A stretch of DNA of 64,000 nt from Sulfitobacter sp. 20_GPM-1509m (GTDB lineage: Bacteria > Pseudomonadota > Alphaproteobacteria > Rhodobacterales > Rhodobacteraceae), in contig NZ_JIBC01000005.1 in assembly GCF_000620505.1 (NCBI RefSeq), positions 496,001 through 560,000 on the forward strand, given 5' to 3'. The first letter of the stretch is position 1. Each line of letters opens with the position of its first letter. Position numbers and translations under genes: made by a program. The notes under the pieces are model-generated. The model worked only from the letters and a program-made list of their open reading frames with translations. It did no database searches and had not been told where the DNA came from. This document shows, piece by piece, positions 20,684 to 36,570 of the stretch.

Positions 20684-20707
20684 GGGAAAAATGGTGCCCA
20701 GAAGAGG
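20684..20707. repeat. Left attachment-site repeat (3' end of tRNA-Leu)
   Basis: A 24-base sequence, identical to 36477-36500. It contains the last 16 bases of the tRNA-Leu gene, including CCA, and eight bases of flank. It ends abruptly in sequence unrelated to a tRNA. This is the usual scar of site-specific integration into a tRNA 3' end. The integrase starts 163 bases inward. Confidence 0.88.
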
Positions 20708-20849
20708 CATCTAATCACTGTATGTAGATGTTTTAAGTCGTCCGAATATGACCGGCCTGCAGCGCAGGATTTGATCCCACCCCTTTTTAATATAGCCGAA
20801 ACTGCATTGCACTGTTTGAATCTGTCCGATACTGTTCACCACATCATGC

Positions 20850-20869
20850 GGGGGACCGGAAGGGGGACC
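20850..20869. repeat. Tandem GGGGGACC motif at the left end (possible integrase arm site)
   Basis: GGGGGACC occurs at 20850-20857 and 20862-20869, a 12-base period, directly before the integrase ATG. A near-identical pair with the same period (GGGGGGCC) is at 36410-36429 inside the right end. Matching short repeats at both ends of an element are what arm-type integrase sites look like. The left pair also overlaps the integrase ribosome-binding region. Confidence 0.5.
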
Positions 20870-20870
20870 G

Positions 20871-22076
20871 ATGCCGACCATATCGAACAGGCTTTCTCCA
20901 GCGTCTTTGGACAGCTTGCCTGCGGGGCGGCACGCGGATGGCGATGGACTGTGGCTCTATAAGCGCGACAGCGGCAGCGCCAAGTGGGTGCTGCGTGTGT
21001 TTGTCTACGGATCGCGCAAAGAAATGGGGCTGGGTGCCTACAAGCCGAAGGGACGTGGCGTAAGTTTGAGCGCGGCGAGAAAGGAAGCCGCGAAGTGGCG
21101 GGCCGTGACCGCCTCTGGCCTGAATCCAATTACAGAACGCGACAGACTTAGACGAGAAGCTGAGCGTAACCTGCATAGTCTCAAGGATGTGACCGCTGAT
21201 GCCTTCGAGAGCCGCAAGGCGGAGCTTAAGGGTGATGGAAAAGCTGGCCGATGGCTTTCGCCCCTTGAGCAGCACATATTGCCAAAGCTGGGCCGGGTTC
21301 CCGTTTCGGAAATTACACAGGTCGAGATCAGAAATGCCTTGGCCCCGATATGGCACACCAAGGCAGATACAGCGCGCAAGGCAATGAACCGCATTGGTTT
21401 GGTTCTCAAGCACGCGGCAGCTCTCGGACTGGACGTTGATTTGCAAGCGACGGACAAGGCTCGCGCGCTCTTGGGCAAGTCTCGGCACAGGCCCAGCAGC
21501 ATCCCTTCTATGCCCTGGCAAGAAGTGCCGACGTTCTACGCGACGCTTGACGATGGTGGGGCTACTCACTTAGCCCTGCGGCTGCTGATCCTCACGGGGT
21601 TAAGATCCGCGCCAGTACGCTTTGCCCACGTCGATCAATTTGACGATGACCTGTGGACCGTACCGGGCGAAATCATGAAAGGTAGGCGAGACCAAACCCC
21701 GGACTTCAGGGTTCCGCTATCAACTGATGCGATTGAGACAATCGAAAGCGCAAGGCTGATTGCGCGTGATGGCTACCTTTTCCCCAGCATCAGGAAGGGT
21801 GTGATCTCAGATGCTACCATGAGCGCCTATATGAAGCGCAAGAAACTGGATACCCGCCCGCATGGATTCAGATCATCATTCAGAAACTGGGCAGAGGAAG
21901 TGGCGGGCGCTACCGAATTGGTCGCCGAAACCTCTCTTGCGCATGTCGTTGGCGGAGCCGTACAGCGCGCCTATCGAACGACAGATGTATTGGAGAAACG
22001 CAGGGCACTGATGCAGCGCTGGGCCGATCACGTTGCCGGAAGGTCGGGAAAAGTCCTAGATATGGTGGCCACATGA
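20871..22076 (+). CDS. int: Tyrosine-type site-specific integrase (P4-like)
   Basis: A 401-aa recombinase. The N-terminal DUF4102-like domain (about 1-90) contains 'LPAGRHADGDGLWLYKRDSG' and 'RVFVYGSRKEMGLGAYKPKG'. The catalytic domain has the first arginine in 'LILTGLRSAPVR', the HxxR box in 'RPHGFRSSFRNWAEE', a later histidine in 'LAHVVGGAVQRAYR', and the nucleophilic tyrosine just after it. All key residues are present, so it is probably active. It lies 187 bases inside the left repeat and should catalyse recombination at the tRNA-Leu 3' end. The stop overlaps the next start (ATGA). Confidence 0.95.
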   Translation: MPTISNRLSPASLDSLPAGRHADGDGLWLYKRDSGSAKWVLRVFVYGSRKEMGLGAYKPKGRGVSLSAARKEAAKWRAVTASGLNPITERDRLRREAERNLHSLKDVTADAFESRKAELKGDGKAGRWLSPLEQHILPKLGRVPVSEITQVEIRNALAPIWHTKADTARKAMNRIGLVLKHAAALGLDVDLQATDKARALLGKSRHRPSSIPSMPWQEVPTFYATLDDGGATHLALRLLILTGLRSAPVRFAHVDQFDDDLWTVPGEIMKGRRDQTPDFRVPLSTDAIETIESARLIARDGYLFPSIRKGVISDATMSAYMKRKKLDTRPHGFRSSFRNWAEEVAGATELVAETSLAHVVGGAVQRAYRTTDVLEKRRALMQRWADHVAGRSGKVLDMVAT

Positions 22077-22705
22077 GAGCATTTGTGCCGCCGGGATGCG
22101 TAAGCTGCGATGACGTATTGAATGAGATTTACGCCAAAGAGTTCGGCAACACCAAGAGAGTGCCTTGCGGGCACTGGGCACTGCCATTTTACAAAGGAAT
22201 CAATGTATCTGCATCAGAATTTCAGGTACAGCGATACCTTAAGGCATTACACATTCTGCAGGGCCAATTGTATACTGGCCATCGTGTTGCCTGCTATGTG
22301 TGCTGCAACGGGATAGTCGCTTTGGATGCTGCTATTTTCGCTCTTGATGGCGCGACAAAATGCCTTGCAAAAGGGGAAATTCATCCCCGTGGGTGGGCAC
22401 CGGATGCTGGACATACCACGCTATTTATTCGCAGCGGCTTAGTCGCCCTGCCTGCATCCGATAGCCTGCCAGCAAAACGGAAAGGGGGGAGAACCCGTAA
22501 GCAGGAACGCGCTTTGGTCGCCTACGATGAGATATACCCAAGGGGCCATGAGAACACGAGAGATACACGAGAGATAGTTGCTCGCCGGGTTGGCGCGCAA
22601 GCGGGGGTATCAGTATCCTTTGACACGATAGATAAAGCGCTGAAATCGAGGCAAAAAGAAGCAGAATTAACAAGTAAAACCGATGTAAAACCCACGCAAA
22701 ACTAA
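22073..22705 (+). CDS. Unknown protein coupled to the integrase
   Basis: A 210-aa protein whose ATG overlaps the integrase stop. I do not recognise the family. The N-terminal part is Cys-rich ('PPGCVSCDDVLNEIYAKEFG', 'ACYVCCNGIVALDAA'), without a clean zinc-finger spacing. The last 60 residues are basic and hydrophilic and contain 'REIVARRVGAQAGVSVSFDT', which looks like a helix-turn-helix or coiled region. Coupling suggests a role with integration or excision, or simple co-expression. Confidence 0.6.
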   Translation: MRAFVPPGCVSCDDVLNEIYAKEFGNTKRVPCGHWALPFYKGINVSASEFQVQRYLKALHILQGQLYTGHRVACYVCCNGIVALDAAIFALDGATKCLAKGEIHPRGWAPDAGHTTLFIRSGLVALPASDSLPAKRKGGRTRKQERALVAYDEIYPRGHENTRDTREIVARRVGAQAGVSVSFDTIDKALKSRQKEAELTSKTDVKPTQN

Positions 22706-22789
22706 AATCGCGTTTTACGTGGTATCGCGCCAATTGTGACGCAAGTCGCATTCGTACAGGTTCGGGTCATTCTAGCAATTTAGCACAGG

Positions 22790-23002
22790 ATGGCCCCAAT
22801 GACCCAACACAGCACAGTCCCCGCAAACGACAGATTTATCACCCTGCAGCAGCTACGTGACAAGCTGGCAGGGCGCGCCCGTTCCAGCATCTATTTGGAT
22901 ATTGAGAACAACCGACTGCCTAAGCCAATGAAGCTGGGCGGCACCCTGTATTGGAGTGAGAACGCCGTCAACGCCGCGATGGCAGAACTCCAAGCCGCCT
23001 AA
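22790..23002 (+). CDS. AlpA/MerR-like excisionase-type DNA-binding protein
   Basis: A 70-aa protein with the AlpA pattern: 'FITLQQLRDKLAGRARSSIY' gives the winged-helix recognition region, and 'NNRLPKPMKLGGTLYWSENA' the conserved wing and 'WxxxxV' end. AlpA proteins regulate integrase genes or act in excision in P4-like elements. A second ATG at 22799 has a better placed AGGATGG and may be the true start. It opens a set of small early genes. Confidence 0.85.
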   Translation: MAPMTQHSTVPANDRFITLQQLRDKLAGRARSSIYLDIENNRLPKPMKLGGTLYWSENAVNAAMAELQAA

Positions 23003-23123
23003 AAGAAAACCCCCACCCGCAAGGCGATGCAGGCAGAGGGCAATTTCTTTTCGTGGGTCCGGCAAGACACACACAGGATATCCCAAAGCTGTACGCCTTT
23101 CAATCCTGAAAGGAACGCGGAAA

Positions 23124-23486
23124 ATGACCAACCAAACCAATATCACTACCGACACCCCGCCGCCGAACTCCCAGCGCAATATGAGCTGGGATGACTTCCC
23201 GCAGGCTCAATCCGCCGAAACATTTGAACTCGTGTCGCCCTCTGGTGAAATCCACAATATCACTTTGGAAAAAGGCACCCTCAGGGTTTTTAAGGCCCTT
23301 GTGAATGGGCCTCTCTACGCGGCCAGCCCCGTCCGGATTAGCGACCGCATCTTGATCCTGAAGCAAGACCATGGCGTCAATATCCAAACCCTCATGTTCA
23401 GCAATGACCGTGTGACGGGACGGCAGCGCTTCGGCGTCTACGTACTGATGGACACAGCACGCCGCCTGAACGGGGGTGCGGCTTGA
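23124..23486 (+). CDS. Winged-helix-like small protein
   Basis: A 120-aa protein starting at the ATG at 23124, 8 bases after an AAAGGAA Shine-Dalgarno. The second half, 'LEKGTLRVFKALVNGPLYAA' to 'DTARRLNGG', has the length and pattern of the winged-helix modules common in alphaproteobacterial prophages, with 'KQDHGVNIQTLMFSNDR' as a possible recognition region. DNA binding is inferred. It lies between AlpA and the PC4-like gene. Confidence 0.65.
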   Translation: MTNQTNITTDTPPPNSQRNMSWDDFPQAQSAETFELVSPSGEIHNITLEKGTLRVFKALVNGPLYAASPVRISDRILILKQDHGVNIQTLMFSNDRVTGRQRFGVYVLMDTARRLNGGAA

Positions 23487-23488
23487 TC

Positions 23489-23590
23489 ATGGCCCTCAAA
23501 ATCCAGATTGCCCGCCTGCAGCGCCTCTACGGCATGTCTGTCACCCAAGCCCGCCTTGTCGCCGGTCTGCACTACGGGGAGAGCGCATAA
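23489..23590 (+). CDS. Small 33-aa peptide
   Basis: ATG at 23489 to TAA at 23588-23590. The product starts 'MALKIQIARLQRLYG' and ends 'ARLVAGLHYGESA'. The start is 2 bases after the preceding stop and the stop overlaps the next ATG by one base (TAATG). This tight packing suggests it is translated. The middle could form a short helix. Function unknown. Confidence 0.55.
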   Translation: MALKIQIARLQRLYGMSVTQARLVAGLHYGESA

Positions 23591-23796
23591 TGGCAGACAT
23601 CGTCAAGAACGGACGCGAGATCATCCGCGTCACCCGTGACGACTTCAAAGGTCACGACATGGTCAACGTCCGCGTCTTCTTCGACGCGGGCGATGGCGAG
23701 ATGAAACCCGGCAAACAGGGGGTCGCGTTCCGCGCGGCCCTGCTGCCCGACGTGCTGAACGCATTAAGCCAGTGCGCGGAGGTCGAGGCCCAGTGA
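23590..23796 (+). CDS. PC4/YdbC-like single-stranded DNA-binding protein
   Basis: A 68-aa protein matching the transcriptional coactivator PC4 fold. 'REIIRVTRDDFKGHDMVNVR' followed by 'GDGEMKPGKQGVAFRAALLP' is the standard strand pattern with the 'KPGKxG' turn. PC4-like proteins bind single-stranded or melted DNA as dimers. In phages and satellites they accompany replication genes. It is overlapped by the next gene (GTGA). Confidence 0.8.
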   Translation: MADIVKNGREIIRVTRDDFKGHDMVNVRVFFDAGDGEMKPGKQGVAFRAALLPDVLNALSQCAEVEAQ

Positions 23797-24623
23797 CAAA
23801 AACCTTCGCCCAAATCGAAACAACATTGCCGCACTCAAGGAAGCTGCGGCAGCTCAACCACGGACAAAGGTGGGCGTATCTATGCGCCCATCTTACACCG
23901 CTTGGCGGCTTCATCGGTCTGTTCCGGTATCCCAGGGCGGTCTGGGCTGATGATGCTGACCTCTCGGCGTCAGAGCTTGATGTCGCGATCCAGAAGATGG
24001 CTGACATTGGCCTGCTATCTTTCGATCACGACGAAGACTTTGTACGTATCCACAGTTGGTTTCTCAAAAAGAACGCGCCGGAGAACGCCAGCCGCATGGC
24101 GTCGATTGCTGCGGACTATGCGGACCTCGATGCACCCGATGAATTGATCCTGACATCGGCGGCAGAGTTCACCGTCGGCGCGCTCAAACGGGCACAGCGG
24201 TGGAAGCCTGACAGCGTCGAGTGGGCGAAACTCCGAGACGTGTTCAAGCCGTTCTTGGCCACGATGCGCCACAACTTCGAAGACGACTTTCATGCGGCGC
24301 TTGCAGACCAACTTGTCGGGCAAAACCGCGCAGTCAGGGTCGAGTTGTGCGCCCTCATGCCCTCGTTGCAACACCACCTTGAGGCACCCTGCCCCCACCC
24401 TGCCCACACCGTGGGGGCACACGACACTAAGACGAGACGACACTTAGACGAAACTGAAACGAGAAAAGACGAAAACTACACGGACCAAAATTCGAGCGAA
24501 AACGTCCAACCCTTCACGTCTCTCAGCTTTGCAGAGGTTGGCAGTGCTGAGAAAGGAACAAAGACGCAAGGACCACGCACCCAAACCATCGAAGCGGCAA
24601 GACGCATAGGAGCAATCCCATGA
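23793..24623 (+). CDS. Phage replication-like protein with N-terminal winged helix
   Basis: A 276-aa protein from a GTG at 23793 that overlaps the PC4 stop. The N-terminal 110 residues, including 'IETTLPHSRKLRQLNHGQRW', 'LGGFIGLFRYPRAVWADDAD' and 'DEDFVRIHSWFLKKNAPENA', resemble the winged-helix domain of phage replication-initiation or replisome organiser proteins. The rest is hydrophilic and rich in Thr/Asp/Glu after residue 200. No helicase or primase motif is visible, so a host or helper replisome would be needed. Family call is moderate; the exact role is inference from fold and neighbours. Confidence 0.6.
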   Translation: MTKTFAQIETTLPHSRKLRQLNHGQRWAYLCAHLTPLGGFIGLFRYPRAVWADDADLSASELDVAIQKMADIGLLSFDHDEDFVRIHSWFLKKNAPENASRMASIAADYADLDAPDELILTSAAEFTVGALKRAQRWKPDSVEWAKLRDVFKPFLATMRHNFEDDFHAALADQLVGQNRAVRVELCALMPSLQHHLEAPCPHPAHTVGAHDTKTRRHLDETETRKDENYTDQNSSENVQPFTSLSFAEVGSAEKGTKTQGPRTQTIEAARRIGAIP

Positions 24624-24654
24624 TCCGAGGACCTTACCAGCAGGAGAACGAGCA

Positions 24655-25089
24655 ATGAGCCGCAACAACGGAACGACAACGGAAGGTCGCAACGCAGACG
24701 GCACCTTTGCGCCGGGCAACCCAGGACGGCCAAGGGGAGCACGCCACAAGGTCACTGAAGCCGTTCAGGCGCTGTTGGACGGCCAGACCGAAGCGCTGAC
24801 CCAAAAAGCCATCGACAGAGCCTTAGAGGGCGATGTGACGGCGCTGCGCCTCTGCCTGGATCGGATCGCACCGGCACGCAAAGACGCTTCGGTATCGTTC
24901 GAGCTGCCAGACATCGAAACGATGGACGACGCAGCCAACGCCGCGCGGGCCATTCTGAGAGCCGTTGCAGACGGAGAGGTTACCCCCCTCGAAGCGGCGT
25001 CAGTCATGGCCGTGGTGGAGCAGTTCCGCCGCACCTTGGAAACCACCGAAATTGAACGCCGCATCACGGCATTGGAGGCAAGCAAATGA
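24655..25089 (+). CDS. DUF5681 domain protein
   Basis: A 144-aa protein with the DUF5681 N-terminal signature 'GRNADGTFAPGNPGRPRGAR' (about residues 11-30), a basic glycine-rich stretch, then a helical region. Such proteins are common in phages and islands and often precede terminase genes; some have been annotated as small-terminase-like. Here no large terminase follows. A strong AGGAGAA lies before the ATG. Its stop overlaps the next start by 4 bases. Confidence 0.75.
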   Translation: MSRNNGTTTEGRNADGTFAPGNPGRPRGARHKVTEAVQALLDGQTEALTQKAIDRALEGDVTALRLCLDRIAPARKDASVSFELPDIETMDDAANAARAILRAVADGEVTPLEAASVMAVVEQFRRTLETTEIERRITALEASK

Positions 25090-25406
25090 ACATCAAACGA
25101 CGCTTAGAGGCGATGGAGCAAAAGCTGGGAGGTTCAGACTACCTCATCGTGTTCTTTCGAACTGTTTTCGAAGCCAAAGGTGGCGGAATTGATGGCGAGA
25201 TTTGGAATGCCTCGATTGTAACCGGCCCTCACGCTGGCGCTTTCGTGAAACGTCAGAACACCGAGGCATTCGAAGACTTTGAAGCCCGCTGTATCGCTGT
25301 GTCTCAAGGAGAGATTGGCCCTGAGGAGAGAGGAATTCCAGAAACCACACAAGCGGAAACCCCAAATTCACTTGCCGACCACATCAACCAATCAGTAACA
25401 GAATAA
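25086..25406 (+). CDS. Unknown small protein following the DUF5681 gene
   Basis: A 106-aa acidic protein that starts 'MNIKRRLEAMEQKLGGSDY'. The N-terminal helix may form a short coiled coil. 'YLIVFFRTVFEAKGGGIDG' follows as a possible beta strand pair. I do not recognise a function. Its ATG overlaps the DUF5681 stop (ATGA), and it ends 13 bases before the ejection-like gene, so all three are likely co-expressed. Confidence 0.55.
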   Translation: MNIKRRLEAMEQKLGGSDYLIVFFRTVFEAKGGGIDGEIWNASIVTGPHAGAFVKRQNTEAFEDFEARCIAVSQGEIGPEERGIPETTQAETPNSLADHINQSVTE

Positions 25407-25419
25407 AGGCGAAAACAAC

Positions 25420-27690: not shown

Positions 27691-27691
27691 C

Positions 27692-28383: not shown

Positions 28384-29238
28384 CTACAGCGTAGTGTAGC
28401 CAAAATGCTTGAAAATGGCCTTTTGGTCGTCCGAAAGCTTCAATTCGTTTGGATTTGTTGGCTGCAATGCCAATCCAAAGTCGGCCACCACATTGCGCTC
28501 TTTTGCCATAATTGGCTCAAGCAGTTTAGCGTGTCTAGTTTCCCACCTTTGACTGCTTGTTTCAATCGACTGGAAGAATGCGCTGGCAACAATATCCGCC
28601 AACTGCAAGCCCGCGTTCTGTTCGTGAGGAACGTAATCTACCAAATTAAAACGAAGAACCTGATGTCTAATTTCACGCTTGTTCAGCAGCGTTGTACCTC
28701 CCGCCGATTGGCGTTTTAAAATCTCCCAGTATGCTTTGGTTTGCGGGTAGCTATGACCGCCTCGCTTGCTGAAAATGACCCTAAGTGACCTTGGTCTCTG
28801 GAAGTGCTTCAGTGAGTCTTTCAGGCACATTTCCGTTGCTCGCTCCATCAGTAATCTGACGCAGTAGTTGTAGAACCACTGCTTACCGTTTCGGATCGCA
28901 GCTCGGCTGTTTTGGTGCCCCTTCATGTTTAATTTATGTGAGCAAACCACGAATGCTTTAACAGGCAGCCCAGCGAGATAAAGGCATGCAGCATCCTTTT
29001 TTGTCGGGCTTAACTTTCTATAATGAAGCGCTGGACCTTGGGTGGCGTCGATTTGCACACGCAAGTCCTTCACCCAGTCTACTGCCTTCGCTTCGTAATT
29101 TGAGCGTGTTAGAAATCCCCCGATAACAAGCCACTCGCTTGCGCCATTCGGGTCAACTGGCTTTATTCTGGCCAGGCCATCGTCGCCAGCTTCATCAATA
29201 TATAGAATGTATTCGTAAGGCTCTGACACACTGGGCAT
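28384..29238 (-). CDS. DUF3800 protein
   Basis: A 284-aa protein of the DUF3800 family. The N-terminal signature is 'YILYIDEAGDDGLARI' (about residues 9-24) and the C-terminal one 'NAGLQLADIVASAFFQSIE' (about 208-226). The conserved acidic residues in these blocks suggest an RNase H-like fold, and a nuclease role has been proposed; I cannot confirm activity. DUF3800 genes are frequent cargo of phages and islands. It reads leftward alone, with a YHYH-like peptide gene upstream on the same strand. Confidence 0.82.
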   Translation of the reverse strand: MPSVSEPYEYILYIDEAGDDGLARIKPVDPNGASEWLVIGGFLTRSNYEAKAVDWVKDLRVQIDATQGPALHYRKLSPTKKDAACLYLAGLPVKAFVVCSHKLNMKGHQNSRAAIRNGKQWFYNYCVRLLMERATEMCLKDSLKHFQRPRSLRVIFSKRGGHSYPQTKAYWEILKRQSAGGTTLLNKREIRHQVLRFNLVDYVPHEQNAGLQLADIVASAFFQSIETSSQRWETRHAKLLEPIMAKERNVVADFGLALQPTNPNELKLSDDQKAIFKHFGYTTL

Positions 29239-29351: not shown

Positions 29352-29504
29352 CTAATGGCAATGTACGCGCCCACCATTGCTGTTATCCGCATGGCAGCAC
29401 TGACCTGGAGGAGAAGATTTCCTACATCCACCACCATGAGCGTCTGCAATCATGGCCGAAAAGGATAGTGCAACGGCAGCCGCCGCAATTGTGATTAATT
29501 TCAT
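29352..29504 (-). CDS. Small secreted YHYH-like peptide
   Basis: A 50-aa protein. A signal peptide occupies about residues 1-22, 'LITIAAAAVALSFSAMIADA', followed by a mature segment beginning 'HGGGCRKSSPPGQCCH' and ending 'GGRVHCH'. The pattern G-x-C-C-H-x-D/N ... G-x-x-H-C-H is that of the YHYH family of small exported Cys/His-rich peptides, which probably bind metal. Four cysteines and six histidines in about 28 residues support this. The start is the ATG at 29504 after GGGAAA. Function unknown. Confidence 0.65.
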   Translation of the reverse strand: MKLITIAAAAVALSFSAMIADAHGGGCRKSSPPGQCCHADNSNGGRVHCH

Positions 29505-29836
29505 TTTCAATTTCCCAAAAGTGTGAAGAGCAAGTGAGCTAAATAACTATGTCTCGTAGCCATAGTTAATGACACATTGAGAGGCACGGTTGGAAGTTTG
29601 TAAAGAAGTATCTGATGCGGATGGTCGCTCAAACCGATATCCTTGGGCGACCACCACCGACATTCTTAATCAAAATGAGCCTCGTTGGTAGCTGACACTC
29701 AGATTGAGCAAGCCGGACGTCGGCAGTGCTGGACAAAGCTTGCCTTCGCTGCGGCTGCGCCAATGGCTGCTTTCAAGGGTATTCAATAAACGGTCGTTTT
29801 TCTAGAAAAGCTAGGTAGGCCCTTTAGAAGTGAGAG
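29505..29836. other. Gene-free stretch with one inverted repeat
   Basis: About 330 A+T-rich bases between the YHYH-like gene and the DUF4236 gene. A 7-bp inverted repeat AACTATG/CATAGTT lies at 29545-29567, 41 bases upstream of the YHYH-like start, and may be an operator or hairpin. Nothing else stands out. Confidence 0.4.
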
Positions 29837-30481
29837 TTACGTGCTCTGCTGAACATCATCGAGCTTACCTTGAACTTCAGATAGTTTATCGGAAAGAGCT
29901 TGGTGCGCATTAGCGAGCTGGGTTTCAATGCCTTTTGCCTCACGGGCACAGGTCGCAACAGCCTCCGCAACTTGATCGCGATAGCGCTTGTTTCCTCCTG
30001 CAAACATACCAAACTGCATGGCCTTGAGACGCGCCTCAATAGCGCCGAGGAACTGCGCATGTTCGCGCACCTTCTCTTCGAGGTCGCTTAGTTTTTGCTC
30101 TTCGGTAAGAACGCGCTTTTCAAAGGTTTGGGCCTTGGGATGCGTAAGCCCCCGTCCACCGTTCAAGGTGCCGATTGCGCGATCAATTCTTGCGCCAATC
30201 GCATTGGTTTTCTCGGCTTCCTTTGACACGGCTTCGATAGCTTTCATGGCTGCACTGCGCAGGTGTTCGATTTCATCAGCGGGACGGGACCGTTGGCTTT
30301 CATCCCAACCAGATATGGATGACCAAGATAGACCTGTGCCAGGCACGGAAAGCGTGGATCGAACCCCGCGTTTGCTGACGTTTACTGTTGCGCCACGTCC
30401 TCCGATACTAGTCGAGACACCAGATTTTGATAGGTTGAGACGCACGCCGGGCATGATCTTGACGGATTTTCGAAAGCGCAT
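29837..30481 (-). CDS. DUF4236 protein with coiled-coil tail
   Basis: A 214-aa protein. Residues 1-55 match DUF4236: 'VKIMPGVRLNLSKSGVSTSI' then 'GGRGATVNVSKRG' and 'LSVPGTGLSWS'. The remaining 150 residues are highly charged helix with heptad-like spacing ('EEQKLSDLEEKVREHAQFL'), so a long coiled coil is likely. DUF4236 is a small beta-rich module often at the N terminus of phage and island proteins. Function unknown. Confidence 0.8.
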   Translation of the reverse strand: MRFRKSVKIMPGVRLNLSKSGVSTSIGGRGATVNVSKRGVRSTLSVPGTGLSWSSISGWDESQRSRPADEIEHLRSAAMKAIEAVSKEAEKTNAIGARIDRAIGTLNGGRGLTHPKAQTFEKRVLTEEQKLSDLEEKVREHAQFLGAIEARLKAMQFGMFAGGNKRYRDQVAEAVATCAREAKGIETQLANAHQALSDKLSEVQGKLDDVQQST

Positions 30482-30556
30482 AATATTGTCCCTGAAAAAT
30501 CAACCTTAGGTCTGCATTTATAGCAGGGTCAAGCTGACTATTAGGTGAGAAGAGGT

Positions 30557-30871
30557 TTAGCCCCGCTCATCTCGCCACACCCACTTGGTGACCTGCTTAA
30601 CCGGACGCCGAACGGTCAACGTGTCCAATTCGGCGGCAGCCGGGACCGTCAACTTCACGCTCATAAATTCCTGCGTGTGACACCGAGAACATCCGAACGG
30701 CGGAACATGCACTTCGTGATGCGGCCCGACGACCTTCACCAGATCCGCCGCCCAATAGTTTGCGGATCGCCCGCAAAGATTGCACCGCAACATGAGCAAC
30801 TGCCCAGAAGATGCCGCATGATGCATCACACGGTTACGGAATCGGTTTGCGGAGGAAGGACCGGCGGGCAT
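30557..30871 (-). CDS. Zinc-ribbon-like small protein
   Basis: A 104-aa protein with two CXXC pairs, 'LRCNLCGRSANYW' and 'PFGCSRCHTQEFM', 30-odd residues apart, the layout of a zinc ribbon. The C terminus is 'VKQVTKWVWRDERG'. Possible starts are 30871, 30826 and 30793; none has a clear Shine-Dalgarno, and the shortest keeps the ribbon intact. It could bind nucleic acid or only zinc. Its neighbours give no clue. Confidence 0.55.
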   Translation of the reverse strand: MPAGPSSANRFRNRVMHHAASSGQLLMLRCNLCGRSANYWAADLVKVVGPHHEVHVPPFGCSRCHTQEFMSVKLTVPAAAELDTLTVRRPVKQVTKWVWRDERG

Positions 30872-31050
30872 CTGGGGAGGTTAGAACAAAATATGAACAT
30901 GCCTCAAGGGCAGGTTTCTGCGCATAAGCAAGGCCAGACGGCTCACCGCGCCTTGGATAGTGGAGCCATTGTTCAGCGGGAACTGGATCGGATCAATTCG
31001 GCCAGCAGCATGATATATACCAAATGCTGGCCGAATGTACGAAATGCAAG

Positions 31051-31401
31051 TTATTTGCATCTCCGTTTCAGTTGTGCAGCTTGCACAGCCTGAATCTTTC
31101 CTTTCGTGATGGCAATATCGGTTTCTTTGTCGTTGCCTGACATGCTCGACAGGGGCAGACCCAGCAAAATGACACCAACTGCGTCACCCGACGCCGCACT
31201 CTTCTGAGCCGCTGTCAATGTTTCAAGATTTTGATCGAGCTGCAATTTTGCTTCAGCAAGTTGGCCACAAGAAGATGACAGGTAAGGGTTCGGTCCAATA
31301 TTGGCAGCTGGAATTTTGTCAGCTTCCTTTGCGCAGGCGGACGCCAGCAAGAAGCACGGAAGGATAAGATATTTCAAATGAATGACTCCAGATTTGTTCA
31401 T
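31051..31401 (-). CDS. Small lipoprotein
   Basis: A 116-aa protein with a lipoprotein signal: 'KYLILPCFLLASACAKE' has the lipobox LASAC with Cys23 as the acylated residue. The mature part contains a second Cys pair and a helical region ('CGQLAEAKLQLDQNLETL') and a short Gly/Leu hydrophobic patch. It would sit in the envelope. Similar lipoproteins occur in phage-related islands, and one possible role is surface modification, but that is only conjecture. Confidence 0.65.
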   Translation of the reverse strand: MNKSGVIHLKYLILPCFLLASACAKEADKIPAANIGPNPYLSSSCGQLAEAKLQLDQNLETLTAAQKSAASGDAVGVILLGLPLSSMSGNDKETDIAITKGKIQAVQAAQLKRRCK

Positions 31402-31508
31402 TTGGAACCGTTAACGATTTTGCGTCAGAGTGAAACACGAAAGCGTGAACAGTGCTGAACTTTCTCAACCCCAAGAGTATCGCTGCTCGGCGTTCTATCT
31501 ATCGAAAT

Positions 31509-31739
31509 TTAGGCAAGAAAGTCCTCGACCGAGCTGTTCTCGAAGTCAGCCAACGCCGCCCCGAGTGCATCCCGATCAGTCGAAAACAGTTCGTCCCAGA
31601 CAAAGCTGGTTGATTTCTCGTTGACCACTTCCAGCGTCCAAAGGGTGTTCTCCCCGCGATAAATCTGGATCTCGAAGCGGTGCCCCTCCACCATGACTGA
31701 CTGGCTCAGCGGGCTGTCGATTATTTCGGGGTCAATCAT
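31509..31739 (-). CDS. Small protein coupled to the XRE regulator
   Basis: A 75-aa acidic protein starting 'MIDPEIIDSPLSQSVMVEG' and containing 'WTLEVVNEKSTSFVWDELF'. Its ATG at 31739 overlaps the regulator stop by 8 bases. I recall similar small proteins next to XRE regulators of this type in Rhodobacterales, so it probably acts with the regulator, for instance as a partner that modulates it. No known domain seen. Confidence 0.65.
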   Translation of the reverse strand: MIDPEIIDSPLSQSVMVEGHRFEIQIYRGENTLWTLEVVNEKSTSFVWDELFSTDRDALGAALADFENSSVEDFLA

Positions 31740-31986
31740 TCGCTTCACCTTTGGGCGATGCATACCGGACGCCAGCACCTCCCCCGTTTTCAGGCAGGAA
31801 CACTAGTCCGTTTCCTTCAAAGCACTGAATCGCTGCGGCTTCATTCTCACGGCTTAGGCGTTTTGTTCTTCCGCTCTCAAAGCTTCGGAGCGTGTCCAGC
31901 GATATTTCAGACGCTTCCGCCTGAGCTTTTATCGACCATTCCAATAGCCCCCTAGCGGCTTTGTTTAATCCTTTGGTCAGCTCCAT
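31732..31986 (-). CDS. XRE-family transcriptional regulator (CI-like)
   Basis: An 84-aa protein with an N-terminal helix-turn-helix: 'ARGLLEWSIKAQAEASEIS' then 'LDTLRSFESGRTKRLSREN', and a short tail 'GLVFLPENGGGAGVRYA', a signature of small phage-type XRE regulators in alphaproteobacteria. The ATG at 31986 sits beside three operator-like dyads, so it probably represses itself and the rightward operon from 32100. It is too short to have a LexA-type cleavage domain, so induction would need a partner or antirepressor. Confidence 0.8.
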   Translation of the reverse strand: MELTKGLNKAARGLLEWSIKAQAEASEISLDTLRSFESGRTKRLSRENEAAAIQCFEGNGLVFLPENGGGAGVRYASPKGEAND

Positions 31987-31996
31987 CCGGCATATC

Positions 31997-32070
31997 CTAC
32001 ATGAAATTTGTATCATGCTACACATATAATGTTGACATGATGAGAGTATGATCCTACATTTAATGTGTAG
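31997..32070. promoter_or_regulatory. Three operator-like dyads in a divergent promoter region
   Basis: CTACA-N7-TGTAG-type sites occur at 31997-32013 (one mismatch), 32018-32034 (one mismatch) and 32054-32070 (perfect). Centres are 21 and 36 bases apart. A rightward promoter fits TTGACA at 32032-32037, 17 bases, then TACATT at 32055-32060, overlapping sites two and three. A leftward promoter fits TCAACA at 32035-32030 and TACAAA at 32012-32007, overlapping sites one and two. The layout is that of a phage repressor switch. Confidence 0.6.
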
Positions 32071-32099
32071 CACACAGGAACGCATTAGAGGAAGAGCAG

Positions 32100-32717
32100 A
32101 TGACAACCACAGCCACATTCAACCGCACCGCCATTATGTCCCACGCTTGGGAAATCGTCCGCCGCGCCAATGTGGAGCTTTATGGGTTGCGCACAATCCT
32201 ACGCCGCGCCTTGCGGGCCGCATGGAGTGAGGCCAAGCACAAGCTGGCAATCGGGCAAGTCGAACAGCAGGCGAAAGCGCAGAGCCCGGAAGTAGCACGC
32301 ACCCGTGAAGCCATTGCCGCGCTCGAGGGCAAGGACCGTTGGACACAGGCCGACTATGCCCGCATAGGCGTTCTGCGCGCTGCACTTCGCGCCGCCGAAG
32401 ACCACGAAGCCGCAGCGCCCGATTATGCTGAAAAGCGCGACCTGATCGCCTCTGCCGGTGGCCGCTTCTGTGCCGTTACCTTCACCAAGGCAGACGGCAC
32501 CGAGCGCACCATGCAGGTGCAGCCAGCGACGTTGCAGCACCACCTCAAGGGGGACGACGCCACAGACGCCGGAAAACGGGCCAAACAGACGCGCAAAGCC
32601 CGCCACCCTCATCTGCTGCCCGTCAGGGACGCGAAGGCCCGAGCGCCCCGCTTCGTCAATCTGGCGACCATTTCACGGATCGCCGTTGATGGGGTTGTCC
32701 ACGAATACCGTGCATGA
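32100..32717 (+). CDS. Unknown protein with SH3-barrel-like C terminus
   Basis: A 205-aa protein, first of the rightward operon. Residues 1-45 ('FNRTAIMSHAWEIVRRANVE') recall small phage and plasmid proteins of this order. The middle is charged helix. The C-terminal 85 residues, with 'CAVTFTKADGTERTMQVQPA' and 'FVNLATISRIAVDGVVHEY', resemble the Sm/SH3-like barrel called WYL_2 (formerly DUF2693) in phages. A GAGGAAGAG element precedes the ATG. Control by the XRE repressor is likely. Function unknown. Confidence 0.6.
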   Translation: MTTTATFNRTAIMSHAWEIVRRANVELYGLRTILRRALRAAWSEAKHKLAIGQVEQQAKAQSPEVARTREAIAALEGKDRWTQADYARIGVLRAALRAAEDHEAAAPDYAEKRDLIASAGGRFCAVTFTKADGTERTMQVQPATLQHHLKGDDATDAGKRAKQTRKARHPHLLPVRDAKARAPRFVNLATISRIAVDGVVHEYRA

Positions 32718-32772
32718 ATTCTGAATTTTGGCGGGGGCAGTTCCCCGTCAGTCACAACCAATGGAGACCAAC

Positions 32773-33192
32773 ATGTTTGACCTTGCCCAAACCGAATTTC
32801 GCCTCAGCGATTTTGCCAAGACCGCTGGCGACGAAGCCCCAACTCCCATCCTGAGCAAAGACGGTGCGCCGAGCCGTGAAGTGATGGAATACTGCAACAA
32901 GCACAACCTGACCCTCGATTGGGCGCTGCTGGGTGAAAGCCCGGTCCATCGCCGCCCCAAAGCTCCGAAACTGTCCGACGTTGAGATGGATGCTGTCTTT
33001 CTCCATGGCTTGCTGCAAGGCCTGGGTTTGCTGATTGATGAAACTGAGCATGTTTCGTCCCCAGCGTCGAACGCAACGACAGCCCTTGTTGAGGAAGTAA
33101 TCAAAAAGAGCGCGCTCTTGAGCGAAGATTTGGGCCGACTGGCCGATGTCACGCCCGGCGCGCGCTCAGTGAGCTCGGAGGCAATCCAATGA
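32773..33192 (+). CDS. Unknown protein, possibly regulatory
   Basis: A 139-aa protein from the ATG at 32773, which has GGAG 6 bases upstream; the ATG at 32761 is an alternative. It contains 'EVMEYCNKHNLTLDWALLGE', a segment like the end of CI-type HTH domains, but without a full HTH before it. The rest is acidic helix. Its stop overlaps the next ATG (ATGA). Second gene of the switch-controlled operon. Confidence 0.6.
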   Translation: MFDLAQTEFRLSDFAKTAGDEAPTPILSKDGAPSREVMEYCNKHNLTLDWALLGESPVHRRPKAPKLSDVEMDAVFLHGLLQGLGLLIDETEHVSSPASNATTALVEEVIKKSALLSEDLGRLADVTPGARSVSSEAIQ

Positions 33193-33710
33193 CCATGACC
33201 CTCACTCAATCCATTTCCAGTGCATACCACCTCAGCAGCGTGTTGCGTGTCTGCATTCGCTCTCTCGAAAGTGATACGGCAATTCAGCCATGCGATGGAG
33301 AGGCAACCGCACACACCGTAAAGCTGGCGAACGACATGGTTAGTGACTTGATCATTGCTCTTGAACATTTGGAAGAAACGGCAAATCGCCGGATGCGTGA
33401 CGACAGCCATGCCGATGGCGCAGCCAAGCTGTTCGGAAAGTGGCAGAACGCCCACACGGGCCGTGATGCTGTTCTCAAAGCGCTGGGGCCAAAGCATTTG
33501 GACGATCCGGAACAGTTGGTGCCGATTGACGAACTGATCGGACGTTTGGGCGAACAAATCGCATCCTCCACGCCACAAAGCGACGCAGACGCAGCCGCCA
33601 TGCTGCAATGGTGTGTGGAGGACTGCGCGGGGGAGTGCTTCGATCCTGACTACCCGAAAGTACAACTGGCCGTGATTGCCTATCTACGGAAGGAGGGTGC
33701 CGAGGTCTAA
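33189..33710 (+). CDS. Unknown acidic protein
   Basis: A 173-aa, mostly helical acidic protein beginning 'MTMTLTQSISSAYHLSSVLR'. It has no recognised domain. Two cysteines lie close together near the C terminus ('QWCVEDCAGECFDPDYPK'). It is translationally coupled to the gene before it and ends 67 bases before the next, with a small hairpin between. Probably part of the same operon. Confidence 0.55.
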   Translation: MTMTLTQSISSAYHLSSVLRVCIRSLESDTAIQPCDGEATAHTVKLANDMVSDLIIALEHLEETANRRMRDDSHADGAAKLFGKWQNAHTGRDAVLKALGPKHLDDPEQLVPIDELIGRLGEQIASSTPQSDADAAAMLQWCVEDCAGECFDPDYPKVQLAVIAYLRKEGAEV

Positions 33711-33777
33711 AGCCACCTCTCGACGCGCGCACCCTATTTGACGGTGCGGGAGCTTACCGCAACAGGATTATGAAACA

Positions 33778-34278
33778 ATGAATTGTTACACCCACAATCG
33801 GAATTGGTCCGACAGGTTTTTGCCTGAAATCAAGCAACTGATCGGGGGCTATCTGTTGGAGACCGCCCCCGATCCAGCTGACCATTTTCAAGCCACGGAC
33901 CTGATGATGCTCGACGCCCGCGACATGCGGGTTGCCGCGCGTGTGCGACGTCCAGGCTACGTGCAGCGGTATCCCCACCAGTTTACCATCCGCTCAGCGG
34001 TCTCATCAGGGGCGCAGACAGAGCTTTCCAAGATTGTGAACGGCAATGGCGACTGGATGTTCTACGGCCACTCAAACGCGGCACAGACAGGCTTGGAGGC
34101 ATGGTCACTGATCGACCTACGGGCGTTTCGGGCTGGGTTGATCCGGCACCGCGCCAATACGCCAAACATCGTCATGGGCGATCAACGGAACGCGGACGGT
34201 ACGCGGTTTAAGTGGTTCGACATGAGGTCGTTTCCTGCGGATCCGCCGTTGGTGGTGGCGTGTTCTGGAAGTAACTAA
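33778..34278 (+). CDS. Unknown phage/plasmid-type protein
   Basis: A 166-aa protein with well-patterned blocks: 'NRNWSDRFLPEIKQLIGGYL', 'ATDLMMLDARDMRVAARVRR' and 'ELSKIVNGNGDWMFYGHSN', then 'WSLIDLRAFRAGLIRH'. I recall homologous proteins on phages, islands and plasmids of several proteobacteria, unnamed. The alternating acidic residues and beta pattern could suit a PD-(D/E)XK-type nuclease fold, but I cannot point to a complete active site. Last gene of the rightward operon, and convergent with the STAS-like gene one base away. Confidence 0.65.
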   Translation: MNCYTHNRNWSDRFLPEIKQLIGGYLLETAPDPADHFQATDLMMLDARDMRVAARVRRPGYVQRYPHQFTIRSAVSSGAQTELSKIVNGNGDWMFYGHSNAAQTGLEAWSLIDLRAFRAGLIRHRANTPNIVMGDQRNADGTRFKWFDMRSFPADPPLVVACSGSN

Positions 34279-34279
34279 G

Positions 34280-34579
34280 TTATGCAGCACTTTTCAGGCG
34301 TTCAGCGTGAACCTTCATTCGTTCACGAAGCATGTTCACAATTTGACGGTTCGCATGCACGACCTTCATCTGCCGTTTGATCTGTTCGAAAGGTAAAGTA
34401 TCAAGAAGCGGAATGAATGCGCAATTCATGAACGATGACGTCATTCCAAACACCCCCAGAAAATCAATCTCTACCTCTTCACCGGCCTTTAAGCTGCCTA
34501 GGATACGAGAAAAAACTGTCTTCCCTTGAGTCGGAGTGTCGCAAGCGTCAACAATGCTTTTTACATGTACTACTACCAT
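34280..34579 (-). CDS. STAS-like DUF4325 protein
   Basis: A 99-aa protein matching DUF4325. 'GKTVFSRILGSLKAGEEVEI' followed by 'DFLGVFGMTSSFMNCAFIPL' is the core, reminiscent of STAS domains, where an internal Ser/Thr can be phosphorylated (here the Thr-Ser-Ser run). It overlaps the upstream HATPase gene by 7 bases. In anti-sigma switches a STAS protein is the substrate of a HATPase kinase. By analogy this is the target or partner of the kinase-like protein next door. Confidence 0.8.
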   Translation of the reverse strand: MVVVHVKSIVDACDTPTQGKTVFSRILGSLKAGEEVEIDFLGVFGMTSSFMNCAFIPLLDTLPFEQIKRQMKVVHANRQIVNMLRERMKVHAERLKSAA

Positions 34580-35463
34580 TCAAACACCTCAGGTTCTTGG
34601 GGTGAGCGTTCAATTTTATCGGTATGGAACACAATGTCTATGAGCGTTCCCGGGCAGAAGCCTCGCTGTTCATATAGCGTGAACTTCGGCTCAGTTCCAG
34701 CTTTTTGAATTTTTACCTCCGCGGTGCCTGAGTGAATTTCAAGCCTACCATTTAGGTTCGCGACGACAATCTGCTTAAGGTAGTGCAGACCAACTCCCTG
34801 GTTGTTCGGCTGAGACTTAGCTGTAAATCCGTCTTCGAATGCTAATTGGATGGCTTTCGCATCGGTCACACCAGACGCAGATCCTACCCTTCGAGCAGTT
34901 GTCGGAATGCCGGGACCGAGGTCAGCAAGGCTAATTCTTATTTCTCTCTCGTTCGGATACCATTGCGCAAAGATGGAACCACTTTCGGCGTCAGTATGAT
35001 CCGAAATATTATTGAAAAGTTCCTTAATGCATGTGCCAAGTTCTGAGAGATCACGAACGGGAATTCCCGAAGAAGTTGAAAGCCACGAAATCAGTTTGTT
35101 TTCTATCCACAGCAAAGCTGCTTCGTTGCTAATTTCAATCAGAGGCACCGTAGTTGCGCGCGGCCTACTATGAGCCCGCAGAAGTTCGCCAGAGTGCTGT
35201 AGAAAGAATTGAGAGTCGTCTAAAAAACGAATGCATTCCATATGTGTGTTGGTGCCAACATAGGCAACCTCGCATCCGTTGTGACGAAGATGGCGGGTGA
35301 CGTTGCTCAAAAACACCACACCAGATGGTCGCACGAAACGGAGTCTCGTAAAATCAAACTCAACTCTCCTTGGAAGTTCAGCAGAACCCAAAAGTTGCTG
35401 ACTTACACTTCGAAATAGATTTGGAGCTCGAAACTGTGAGGGCAGATAAATTTTTGTTTTCAT
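34573..35463 (-). CDS. STAS-like/HATPase (GHKL) protein
   Basis: A 296-aa protein from the ATG at 35463, with AGAAGG 5 bases upstream. Residues about 1-95 form a STAS-like domain ('VEFDFTRLRFVRPSGVVFLS', 'GCEVAYVGTNTHMECI'). Residues about 140-270 are a GHKL ATPase: N box 'CIKELFNNISDHTDAESGS', G1 'ISLADLGPGIP', G2 'NNQGVGLHYLKQIVVANL'. No dimerisation/phosphoacceptor His box or sensor domain is present, so it resembles anti-sigma-type serine kinases more than histidine kinases. It is paired with a separate STAS-like gene. Output unknown. Confidence 0.8.
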   Translation of the reverse strand: MKTKIYLPSQFRAPNLFRSVSQQLLGSAELPRRVEFDFTRLRFVRPSGVVFLSNVTRHLRHNGCEVAYVGTNTHMECIRFLDDSQFFLQHSGELLRAHSRPRATTVPLIEISNEAALLWIENKLISWLSTSSGIPVRDLSELGTCIKELFNNISDHTDAESGSIFAQWYPNEREIRISLADLGPGIPTTARRVGSASGVTDAKAIQLAFEDGFTAKSQPNNQGVGLHYLKQIVVANLNGRLEIHSGTAEVKIQKAGTEPKFTLYEQRGFCPGTLIDIVFHTDKIERSPQEPEVFEW

Positions 35464-35704
35464 GCAAACCTTCTTACTGATCGCCATAGCTTTGGTCGAC
35501 GTCTGCAATGCTACAATGCTCGCGCCACAGGATTCGCCCTGACGACAGTCACTACTGTCTCTGAACGACTTTACGTGCACACTGCATGCATACTTGGAGA
35601 CCACTTGTCCCCCAAACTCGCTTTGCTAGGTGGAGTTTTTGCTTTTTCGGCTAGGGGTACTCTAAGTACAGTTATCAATGCTTGGCTAGAAAGGAGAGCT
35701 TAAA

Positions 35705-35878
35705 GTGAAATATTTAGTTGTGAAAGCGGTCAGTACCTCAGGCCTCACCGAGGCAGTTTGTGAATGGCTGGACAAAGGATGGAAGCCGCATGGGAGCGTG
35801 GGCATTTCATCGGTTCTAACGGACGATGGACAAATTAGAACGACCTTAGTTCAAGCTCTTACCAAGGACGCCGAATAG
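35705..35878 (+). CDS. DUF1737-like small protein
   Basis: A 57-aa protein from a GTG at 35705, preceded by an AAGGAGAG. It starts 'MKYLVVKAVSTSGLTEAV' and has 'LDKGWKPHGSVGISSVLTD', then ends with 'TLVQALTKDAE'. The beta-alpha-'GW-P-G-' pattern is that of DUF1737. It is divergent from the HATPase gene and lies near the right end of the element. Function unknown. Confidence 0.65.
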   Translation: MKYLVVKAVSTSGLTEAVCEWLDKGWKPHGSVGISSVLTDDGQIRTTLVQALTKDAE

Positions 35879-35925
35879 CTGTCCCGCACTGCATTGCATT
35901 AACTATCTAGACTCTAGGTCGCCCC

Positions 35926-36011
35926 AGAAGTTAAATTCCACTCCGTGGAGAACTTCTTTCCGAAAGCTCTAGCCTGAAACGAGGCGGGCAACGGCCCGGG
36001 GAAGGAGGTGA
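35926..36011 (+). ncRNA. Structured leader before the 44-aa gene
   Basis: Three hairpins follow each other: a long one with arms AGAAGTT (35926-35932) and AACTTCT (35951-35957) enclosing TCCAC/GTGGA; a short GCCT (35972-35975)/AGGC (35982-35985); and GGGC (35986-35989)/GCCC (35994-35997). Right after comes AAGGAGGTGA (36002-36011), almost fully complementary to the 16S 3' end. This is more structure than an ordinary 5' leader and may control translation. The first hairpin might instead terminate the DUF1737-like gene. Confidence 0.4.
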
Positions 36012-36017
36012 GTGTCA

Positions 36018-36152
36018 ATGGCACGTTCCACACGCAAAGTCGGGCGTAGTGCGATCACTGGTCGCTTTACTACGGTCGCCACGGCAAAGCGCAAGCCTAA
36101 TACGCATGTTGTAGAAACCGTGAAAAAGCCAAAAGCCCGCAAGGGTAAGTAA
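36018..36152 (+). CDS. Small basic protein, 44 aa
   Basis: A very basic peptide starting 'MARSTRKVGRSAITGRFTT' and ending 'KKPKARKGK'. The 'SAITGRFTTVATAKRKPNTH' pattern recalls a widespread family of short basic proteins in phages and islands whose function is not known. It has an outstanding Shine-Dalgarno (AAGGAGGTGA, 6 bases before ATG) and is followed by a clear terminator, so it is probably strongly translated. Nucleic-acid binding is possible from charge. Confidence 0.7.
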   Translation: MARSTRKVGRSAITGRFTTVATAKRKPNTHVVETVKKPKARKGK

Positions 36153-36156
36153 GCTT

Positions 36157-36198
36157 CAGGGTGGCTTTTCTGTGAGAGGAGTGGCCACCCTGTTTATT
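36157..36198 (+). terminator. Rho-independent terminator after the 44-aa gene
   Basis: CAGGGTGGC (36157-36165) and GCCACCCTG (36184-36192) form a perfect 9-bp stem, followed by TTTATT. It begins 5 bases after the stop codon of the 44-aa gene. Confidence 0.75.
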
Positions 36199-36476
36199 CC
36201 ATGTTTTCCATATTGAATCAAAGATTTAAACGAATCTTAAATCAATGACTTAGCTAATTTGGATCGCGCCAGTTTGGCGTTCGATGAAGGGAGAGCGTTT
36301 TTGAGATGCTACGCAACGCTGGCATGTTATCAGCACCGCTTAGTTGACCGTCTCGGCCAACAAAACTGGTTTAACCAAAACCACGATCACCGAACGTCAA
36401 AGGACGGGCGGGGGGCCGCACGGGGGGCCAAAAAGCACAGCGTGCGATGTTATATAATGAATTCAATATCTTAACG
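36199..36476. other. Right-end non-coding region of the element
   Basis: A gene-free stretch inside the right repeat. It contains an A+T-rich nested inverted repeat around AAGATT (36221-36226)/AATCTT (36233-36238), and the GGGGGGCC tandem at 36410-36429. It may be the attachment arm region where integrase and accessory proteins bind. Confidence 0.45.
36410..36429. repeat. Tandem GGGGGGCC motif at the right end (possible integrase arm site)
   Basis: GGGGGGCC at 36410-36417 and 36422-36429, a 12-base period, in the same orientation as the GGGGGACC pair beside the integrase start. It lies 48 bases inside the right direct repeat. Confidence 0.5.
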
Positions 36477-36484
36477 GGGAAAAA

Positions 36485-36570
<86 letters not shown>

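Follow-up and report, generated by a model that had tools for sequence, protein, structure and literature searches.

Can a phage satellite bring its own DNA-delivery protein to the particles of its helper? The question is raised by an integrated element at positions 20684-36500 of a 64,000-nucleotide stretch of the Sulfitobacter sp. 20_GPM-1509m genome (contig NZ_JIBC01000005.1, positions 496,001 to 560,000; we call this whole stretch the window), which carries integration and regulatory genes together with a gene for a 756-aa protein of podoviral ejection type. A reading made from the DNA letters alone (the sequence-only reading) had offered two explanations, a prophage remnant or a satellite with its own ejection factor, and had leaned to function over decay. 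Our comparisons favour the satellite and disfavour the remnant, because elements of this kind occur at 12 loci, their ejection genes fall in four places of a tree, and the ejection protein is under strong purifying selection. On balance we lean to the view that the window element belongs to a family of phage satellites integrated in Rhodobacterales genomes, and that such satellites equip helper particles with ejection proteins of their own and so alter delivery.

On homology and synteny, the 756-aa protein is a predicted podoviral ejection protein. Its open reading frame is intact, and its sole PHROG match, phrog_5880 ('unknown function'), has an E-value of 2e-30 and spans residues 81-723, which is most of the length; Pfam gave no match for it. 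In three annotated phages (RHph_I3_18, Mwe-JY13 and phiGT1) genes of the tail region come before the homologue, and fibre or endolysin genes follow downstream; in two of the three, hypothetical genes intervene. For phiGT1 the annotation reads 'putative internal virion/injection protein', and the protein weakly resembles the product of P22 gene 16. Five IMG/VR contigs have a homologue within a podoviral operon that also contains portal, scaffold, capsid or tail genes, and in four of them the homologue is 58-61% identical to the window protein. We also took the best 80 of 171 viral relatives as a set of IMG/VR loci with this type of protein. Podoviral virion genes were found in 53 of these 80 by tblastn with phiGT1, RHph and Mwe queries, and a retest of seven among the remaining 27, with genes of a prophage in the Sulfitobacter host genome as queries, gave five positives (L192, L195, L197, L222 and L228). 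The retest positives show head-closure or portal and capsid genes, and L228 was positive for the large terminase (TerL), portal, scaffold, capsid and head closure. The homologues, then, sit in the podoviral ejection slot. The sequence-only reading had called the protein one of internal-virion type and proposed a comparison with phage protein families; the phage synteny agrees with that call and answers the objection that this might not be a virion protein at all. We found no second homologue elsewhere in the host genome at E<=0.001. An AlphaFold model of the protein is almost all helix (predicted local distance difference test score, pLDDT, 67), and a viral-only model library returned 32 matches to it at E<=0.001, with TM-scores of at most 0.48.

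The element around this gene has the form of a mobile element. It is delimited by a 24-nt exact direct repeat, and as in phage satellites a site-specific integrase goes with an attachment repeat at a tRNA gene. An empty site is seen in the congener G003, where the flanks join at the att core (left flank 74.8% identical over 139 nt, right flank 98.6%); a second one in the congener G004 is weaker (73% over 71 nt), and in three of the five congeners compared the left flank had no match. The left half is a single plus-strand run of the integrase, 210-aa, AlpA-like, 120-aa, PC4, 283-aa, DUF5681, 106-aa and 756-aa genes. We define the element core as the integrase, AlpA-like, PC4, replication-like and DUF5681 genes. 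This is the mobile element with integrase, AlpA, PC4, replication-like and DUF5681 genes at tRNA-Leu that had been read from the letters, and the repeat and the family matches agree with it, with AlpA just under the cut-off and the replication-like match weak. The earlier description of the 756-aa protein as lying directly after DUF5681 needs amending, as one 106-aa gene (25086-25406) lies between them; the intact frame was described correctly. The 106-aa gene overlaps the DUF5681 gene by 4 nt and ends 13 nt before the start of the 756-aa gene, and because of this overlap and this short gap the three genes may be co-expressed, in what looks like one operon. A promoter scan found 3 promoters where 2.3 were expected.

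We scanned 20 element proteins against Pfam and PHROGs (the scan left out the 166-aa gene) and found no virion or lysis family above threshold among them. Matches below the Pfam threshold included a Mu-like protease to the DUF5681 protein (E 0.099) and Phage_Gp111 to the 205-aa protein (E 0.008). By the family scans and by tblastn, the window element has no complete virion gene set.

Is this a single odd locus, or does the arrangement recur? Profile searches of 394 and 390 genomes (at family and order level, overlapping sets with different cut-offs) gave ejection-protein relatives in 8 and 14 genomes, 18 of them distinct, and with G003 from a first search of 195 genomes there were 19. At 12 of the 19 loci (the window, L001, L026, L027, L029, L260, L261, L263, L264, L267, L268 and L269) at least two core genes are present and there is no other virion-class match; tblastn with podoviral queries found no terminase, portal, capsid, tail-tube or lysis gene at any of the 12. 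L024, L025, L028 and L265 have virion genes and no core, and so do L262 and L030 once host-prophage genes are used as queries; L266 has neither. L030 (5795-11333, G398) is an ejection-like gene block with one head-closure match to the host-prophage queries and no core genes. The sequence-only reading had suggested looking in other Rhodobacterales for the same gene order without packaging genes; core genes together with the ejection gene, and no other recognised virion gene, are found at these 12 loci including the window.

A second set of loci was selected on DUF5681, which is present in 30 of the 394 genomes. It has 32 loci including the window, from 29 of the 30 genomes, with G304 and five secondary places left out. 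Adding L001 and the seven loci found via the ejection gene (L260, L261, L263, L264 and L267-L269) makes a set of 40 element or DUF5681 loci. Ejection-class matches occur in 14 of the 40, a biased rate because of those seven loci, and other virion classes occur in none at E<=1e-4 by tblastn. The classes sought were TerL, portal, capsid, scaffold, tail tube, head closure, spike, fibre, endolysin and holin, and the queries came from phiGT1, RHph_I3_18, Mwe-JY13, the host prophage, KLEP18-1 and two IMG/VR phages. A tRNA gene is present in 11 of the 23 loci scanned, and in all nine of these 11 that we examined a repeat of 14 to 24 nt coincides with the 3' end of the tRNA gene (with no shuffled control). 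The repeat-bounded relatives are about 4.7 to 16.5 kb long and lie in tRNA-Leu, -Ser, -Thr and -His genes. At the small end, L079 (6476-11135, G081) is an apparent 4.7-kb element with integrase, AlpA and DUF5681 genes and an 18-nt repeat at tRNA-Leu(CAG), so DUF5681 is kept even in this minimal element. The 120-aa gene of the window is recurrent among the relatives.

The copies of the ejection gene do not appear to share one history. In an 80-row tree with 12 element rows (23 names, near-identical or remote viral rows, were listed for removal beforehand), the element copies fall in four places, and well-supported branches force four label changes. The four places are the window with L001, beside L002-L005 and L170; L027 alone; L026 together with L260 and L261; and a clade made up of elements alone, whose six loci come from six genera. 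The rows that part L027 from L026, L260 and L261 include L192, L195, L222 and L228, all with virion genes. A 92-row tree also has four changes, with five element copies and a long-branch warning on L029 and L012. From the tree, related elements appear to have acquired ejection genes more than once, and phages were presumably the donors.

The ejection protein is under strong purifying selection. Between the window and G003 the ratio of nonsynonymous to synonymous substitution rates (dN/dS) is 0.065 over 556 codons (dS 0.60), compared with 0.11 for DUF5681, 0.21 for PC4 and 0.45 for the 106-aa gene, and the L260/L261 pair gave 0.07 for the ejection protein. These values, together with the four tree places and the 12 loci, are in line with the earlier preference for function over decay. 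They also bear on a deleted prophage, that is, a podoviral prophage reduced to its integration genes and one ejection gene. A lone ejection gene could be such a leftover, and the G003 copy is interrupted. Yet core and ejection genes with no other recognised virion gene recur at 12 loci, none of the 80 IMG/VR loci that carry the protein has element core genes, and neither the scattered tree places nor the low dN/dS fits a decaying remnant, so we regard a deleted prophage as very improbable. Related elements with a full structural set, which would have pointed to a remnant, were looked for and not found (no core in the 80 viral loci, no other virion class in the 40).

Selection also speaks against a reading of the elements as integrative islands with another way of moving, in which the ejection gene is neutral cargo from prophages. 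A packaging role for DUF5681 is our own deduction, and this leaves such islands some room, but neutral pickup does not explain strong purifying selection or why the ejection class is found in 14 of 40 loci while the other virion classes sought are found in none. We think neutral cargo quite improbable.

The case for a satellite also depends on how the element might be packaged, and here DUF5681 may be a small-terminase-like packaging selector. In phages, a DUF5681-type protein lies directly upstream of TerL. In the viral contigs L097 and L099, DUF5681 proteins over the Pfam cut-off abut TerL; L110 and L160 have a motif-bearing protein before TerL with a DUF5681 match under the cut-off; L123 has one with no DUF5681 match and a sub-threshold DNA-packaging match; and in L101 a protein identified by the motif precedes TerL. 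All six downstream genes tested with PHROGs were TerL, and portal came next in both of the two tested. A tblastn search with four TerL queries placed TerL near the motif in two of 80 contigs (L124 and L164). Scanning viral sequences with two DUF5681 rows turned up no relative; a scan with a 17-row alignment did so, via a pattern on the GNPGRPxG motif. A comparison of the element and phage DUF5681 profiles gave 97.7% (E 1.9e-12, 62 columns), which is not independent because the phage set was found through that same pattern. The sequence-only reading had seen no packaging or capsid genes; the scans support it for capsid, portal, tail and lysis families, and 'no packaging' is doubtful because DUF5681 relatives adjoin TerL in phages. 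In phage records, tblastn with DUF5681 gave one match, the 8.7-kb fecal scaffold MT836812.1. This unverified scaffold (L089) has, besides DUF5681, a tape-measure-looking gene by eye, with no match to Pfam TMP_3.

If the loading reading is right, the events would run as follows. A P22-gp16-type ejection gene would have been taken from a podovirus and placed behind DUF5681. The core genes would excise and replicate the satellite and mark its DNA for the large terminase of the helper. During the lytic cycle of the helper the satellite would make the ejection protein, which would enter the helper procapsid together with satellite DNA and change how the particle delivers its content. Once loaded, the protein may adapt the conduit for DNA to recipients or exclusion systems that defeat the ejection proteins of the helper.

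Phage P22 offers a precedent. Statements on the papers cited here by PMC number hold for the excerpts consulted. P22 virions take up foreign ejection proteins, and P22 with the ejection proteins of HK620 partially escapes SieA (PMC10883804). P22 with only the gp16 of Sf6 makes similar numbers of particles, which contain Sf6 gp16 and are non-infectious (PMC10883804). Going by these results, a loaded protein could let DNA into cells that exclude the helper, or it could spoil the virions of the helper.

The second outcome is an alternative in its own right. In a sabotage of this kind, the satellite protein in helper virions would mismatch the gp20-type partner, the helper particles would be non-infectious, and the host population would be protected. 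The non-infectious P22 particles with Sf6 gp16 speak for it (PMC10883804). At nine of the 12 loci only a gp16-slot ejection gene was recognised, with no second ejection gene, and the profiles of the window family missed the 661-aa slot protein of the host prophage. The other three loci (L026, L260 and L261) have at least two neighbouring ejection genes, and L061 and L074 have a gp20-like gene with an 865- or 878-aa protein, between the PC4 or 120-aa gene and DUF5681, all of which fits delivery better; satellite particles would be poisoned too unless matched. The multi-gene sets would favour delivery, and the lone genes leave room for sabotage, which we judge unlikely overall.

The make-up of the multi-gene sets varies. 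L026 has a phrog_4287 'DNA ejection protein', a VanY-domain protein and a phrog_5880 protein. L261 has a GNAT gene, a phrog_598 'DNA ejection' gene, a 494-aa gene without a PHROG match and a phrog_5880 gene, and L260 shares the last two, a 494-aa-like and a phrog_5880-type gene. The ejection block of P22 has the order gp14-gp7-gp20-gp16, and the L261 set, as predicted from its genes, is in this order 14-7-20-16. The phiGT1 paper describes IVPA in a figure legend as homologous to P22 gene 14 (PMC10386132). In Paracoccus phage KLEP18-1, the 'structural protein' genes gp21, gp20 and gp19 match the 865-aa protein, the gp20-like genes and the first ejection gene of L026, respectively; gp19-gp21 lie after an acetyltransferase gene and before fibre genes. 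The P22 block and phiGT1 gp18/gp19 are of the same protein class as the window-family genes, and unlike those the window-family genes lie in elements without recognised portal, capsid or tail-tube genes.

The IMG/VR contig L094 (10001-13404, G726) has integrase, replication and DUF5681 genes and then a tape-measure protein over the Pfam TMP_3 cut-off, which may be a siphoviral counterpart of the ejection cargo; a second tape-measure protein near the contig start makes this link a lead only. A wider form of the loading reading would be that satellites swap the whole ejectosome, with repeatedly captured proteins (one to four genes, and on one contig perhaps a siphoviral tape-measure protein) decoupling delivery from the helper, so that satellite DNA could enter cells from which the helper is shut out, and perhaps spoiling helper virions. 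We hold this wider form tentatively, as possible rather than probable. The 521-aa protein of L084 has weak endolysin matches (E 9e-5). We rejected the large proteins near DUF5681 in L080 and L081 as ejection-like, since they had no PHROG match and did not look ejection-like by eye, and other large downstream proteins had kinase or epimerase matches or none.

A role outside the particle would be exclusion or immunity: produced in the resting state, the protein would stop incoming podoviruses by interference with their conduit. SieA of P22 acts on ejection proteins at the membrane (PMC10883804), and there are accessory-looking genes further right in the element. The gene itself stands close behind the DUF5681 and 106-aa genes on the same strand, though, and the multi-gene sets keep phage gene order. 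PADLOC, run on 10 right-part proteins (the 756-aa protein is outside that scan), gave two weak matches only, both to the DUF4236 protein. We find exclusion improbable.

If satellites load ejection proteins, which phage would be the helper? The host genome has a P22-like podoviral prophage at G000:C4, about 129753-147096 (L273, L274), with a Terminase_3 TerL, a phrog_156 portal, a scaffold, a major capsid protein, head closure, Hc3 and ejection-type genes of its own. Its portal is 50% identical to that of phage L228, whose ejection protein adjoins L026, L260 and L261 in the tree, and its 438-aa protein resembles the 494-aa protein of L261 (40.5% over 158 aa). Its 661-aa protein, in the gp16 slot, was not found by the window-family profiles and has one weak link to L267 over 46 aa. 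Judged by these genes, the prophage is a possible helper and is treated here as a candidate. A second TerL (Terminase_6N) lies at G000:C11 56027-56638 (L275) and is perhaps that of a gene transfer agent.

Several points weigh against the loading reading. The ejection gene would count as cargo and not as an obligate gene, because only six of the 32 DUF5681-selected loci (window included) carry an ejection-class match; this rate is unbiased, though many of these loci are either fragmentary or distant. Nor is the core the same everywhere, as L267, L268 and L269 gave no DUF5681 match. L260 and L261 are cut near DUF5681, and the L001 contig ends inside the ejection gene: this G003 copy (L001 11665-11759) ends near residue 586, with an apparent insertion sequence, read by eye, at the contig end. 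The virion search used mainly podoviral queries and known families, which divergent or siphoviral genes could escape. In which direction the gene was transferred cannot be read from the tree, and its supports are Shimodaira-Hasegawa-like approximate likelihood ratio test (SH-aLRT) values from a quick search. Neither the DUF5681 model nor the ejection-protein model has a PDB fold match at E<=0.001, and both are of low confidence (predicted template modelling scores, pTM, of 0.44 and 0.42). One DUF5681 protein is reported among the structural proteins of Salmonella phage STGO-35-1 (PMC8954984), which is unexpected for a small terminase. The ejection-family protein of L269 (9294-10982, G561) matches phrog_21712 'major head protein' (E 1e-19), a family name that may be wrong, and the VanY protein of L026 also matches tape-measure and endolysin families via its peptidase domain. 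From the result with Sf6 gp16 alone, an element with one ejection gene would need a matching helper.

How does this compare with satellites already described? Satellites known so far act by redirecting terminases, by remodelling capsids or by supplying whole capsids. Capsid-forming phage-inducible chromosomal islands (cf-PICIs) are satellites with virion parts of their own, P4 has the genes sid, psu, delta and the alpha primase, and the P in vB_EcoP_Kapi1 marks a podovirus by naming convention. The window element is of neither the cf-PICI nor the P4 type: family scans and tblastn found no capsid, portal or terminase of its own, and the P4 families (sid, psu, delta, alpha primase) are absent from the matches of the 20 element proteins scanned. 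The PICI EcCIMP1, with vB_EcoP_Kapi1 as helper, is like the window element in having an integrase and no virion set; it has an AlpA regulator, where the window has an AlpA-like gene, and it is transferred in helper particles (PMC11773190). It differs in that the excerpts mention no ejection gene (PMC11773190), and a TerS-like role in the window is read from the position of DUF5681 relatives only. Phage-inducible chromosomal minimalist islands (PICMIs) of Vibrionaceae are also small and without capsid remodelling, and they have excision and replication genes and AlpA, for which the window element has candidates; they insert next to fis, and the excerpts report no packaging-redirection homologue and leave ejection unmentioned (PMC10803314). 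AH14b of Pseudomonas (16.8 kb) and P4-like satellites resemble the window element in size, integrase, AlpA-like gene and lack of a structural set, and have a primase of their own, where the window has a weakly replication-like gene; AH14b differs in that two helper genes, those for tail assembly protein I and a lipoprotein, have counterparts in it by homology, no AH14b protein was detected in the virion, and ejection or injection is unmentioned in the excerpts (PMC4936722). Mulch and Flayer, two satellites of Streptomyces, come with their own virion parts, as the window family would (PMC10690885). They and cf-PICIs encode encapsidation machinery, whereas the window family shows the ejection class only.

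In the excerpts of the open-licence literature that we searched, no satellite is described as bringing only DNA-delivery proteins, and no paper treats this combination among those sought on satellites with Rhodobacterales, with ejection or internal virion proteins, or with DUF5681. If the loading reading is true, envelope-crossing delivery would be a separate target in the conflict between satellite and helper. Such elements would also test whether ejection proteins limit where a particle delivers DNA. With a candidate helper prophage in the same genome, the question is testable in one strain.

Table 1. Features of the element and its insertion site, in window positions.
Feature	Positions	Strand	Evidence or remark
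attL	20684..20707	+	24-nt exact direct repeat
Tyrosine integrase, 401 aa	20871..22076	+	PF22022 E 4e-14, PF13356 E 2e-12, phrog_1
210-aa gene adjoining the integrase	22073..22705	+	no family
AlpA-like regulator or excisionase, 70 aa	22790..23002	+	PF05930 20.6 bits, cut-off 21; phrog_66 E 0.0016
120-aa gene	23124..23486	+	no family; recurs in relatives
PC4-like protein, 68 aa	23590..23796	+	PF02229 E 4e-12
283-aa protein, replication slot	23772..24623	+	weak: phrog_25711 E 4e-5; DnaD-like helicase loader E 0.045
DUF5681 protein, possible small-terminase-like packaging selector	24655..25089	+	PF18932 E 1.5e-8; in phages, relatives precede TerL
106-aa gene between DUF5681 and ejection gene	25086..25406	+	faster evolving
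Predicted podoviral ejection protein (internal virion, P22 gp16-like slot), 756 aa	25420..27690	+	phrog_5880; synteny; tree; dN/dS 0.065
DUF3800, cargo	28384..29238	-	PF12686
DUF4236, cargo	29837..30481	-	PF14020
128-aa gene	31732..32118	-	in 4 of 11 relatives
205-aa right-end gene	32100..32717	+	in 6 of 11 relatives
166-aa right-end gene	33778..34278	+	in 7 of 11 relatives
DUF4325, STAS-like, cargo	34280..34579	-	PF14213, phrog_9989
HATPase, cargo, overlaps DUF4325	34573..35604	-	PF02518, phrog_3364; sub-threshold STAS match
attR	36477..36500	+	identical 24 nt; overlaps tRNA-Leu 3' end
tRNA-Leu(CAG), integration target	36485..36570	-	

The replication slot of L001 holds a 419-aa protein, in which we read a P-loop by eye. 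In the right half of the window element, the overlapping DUF4325/HATPase pair (34280-35604) is possibly regulatory or defence cargo.

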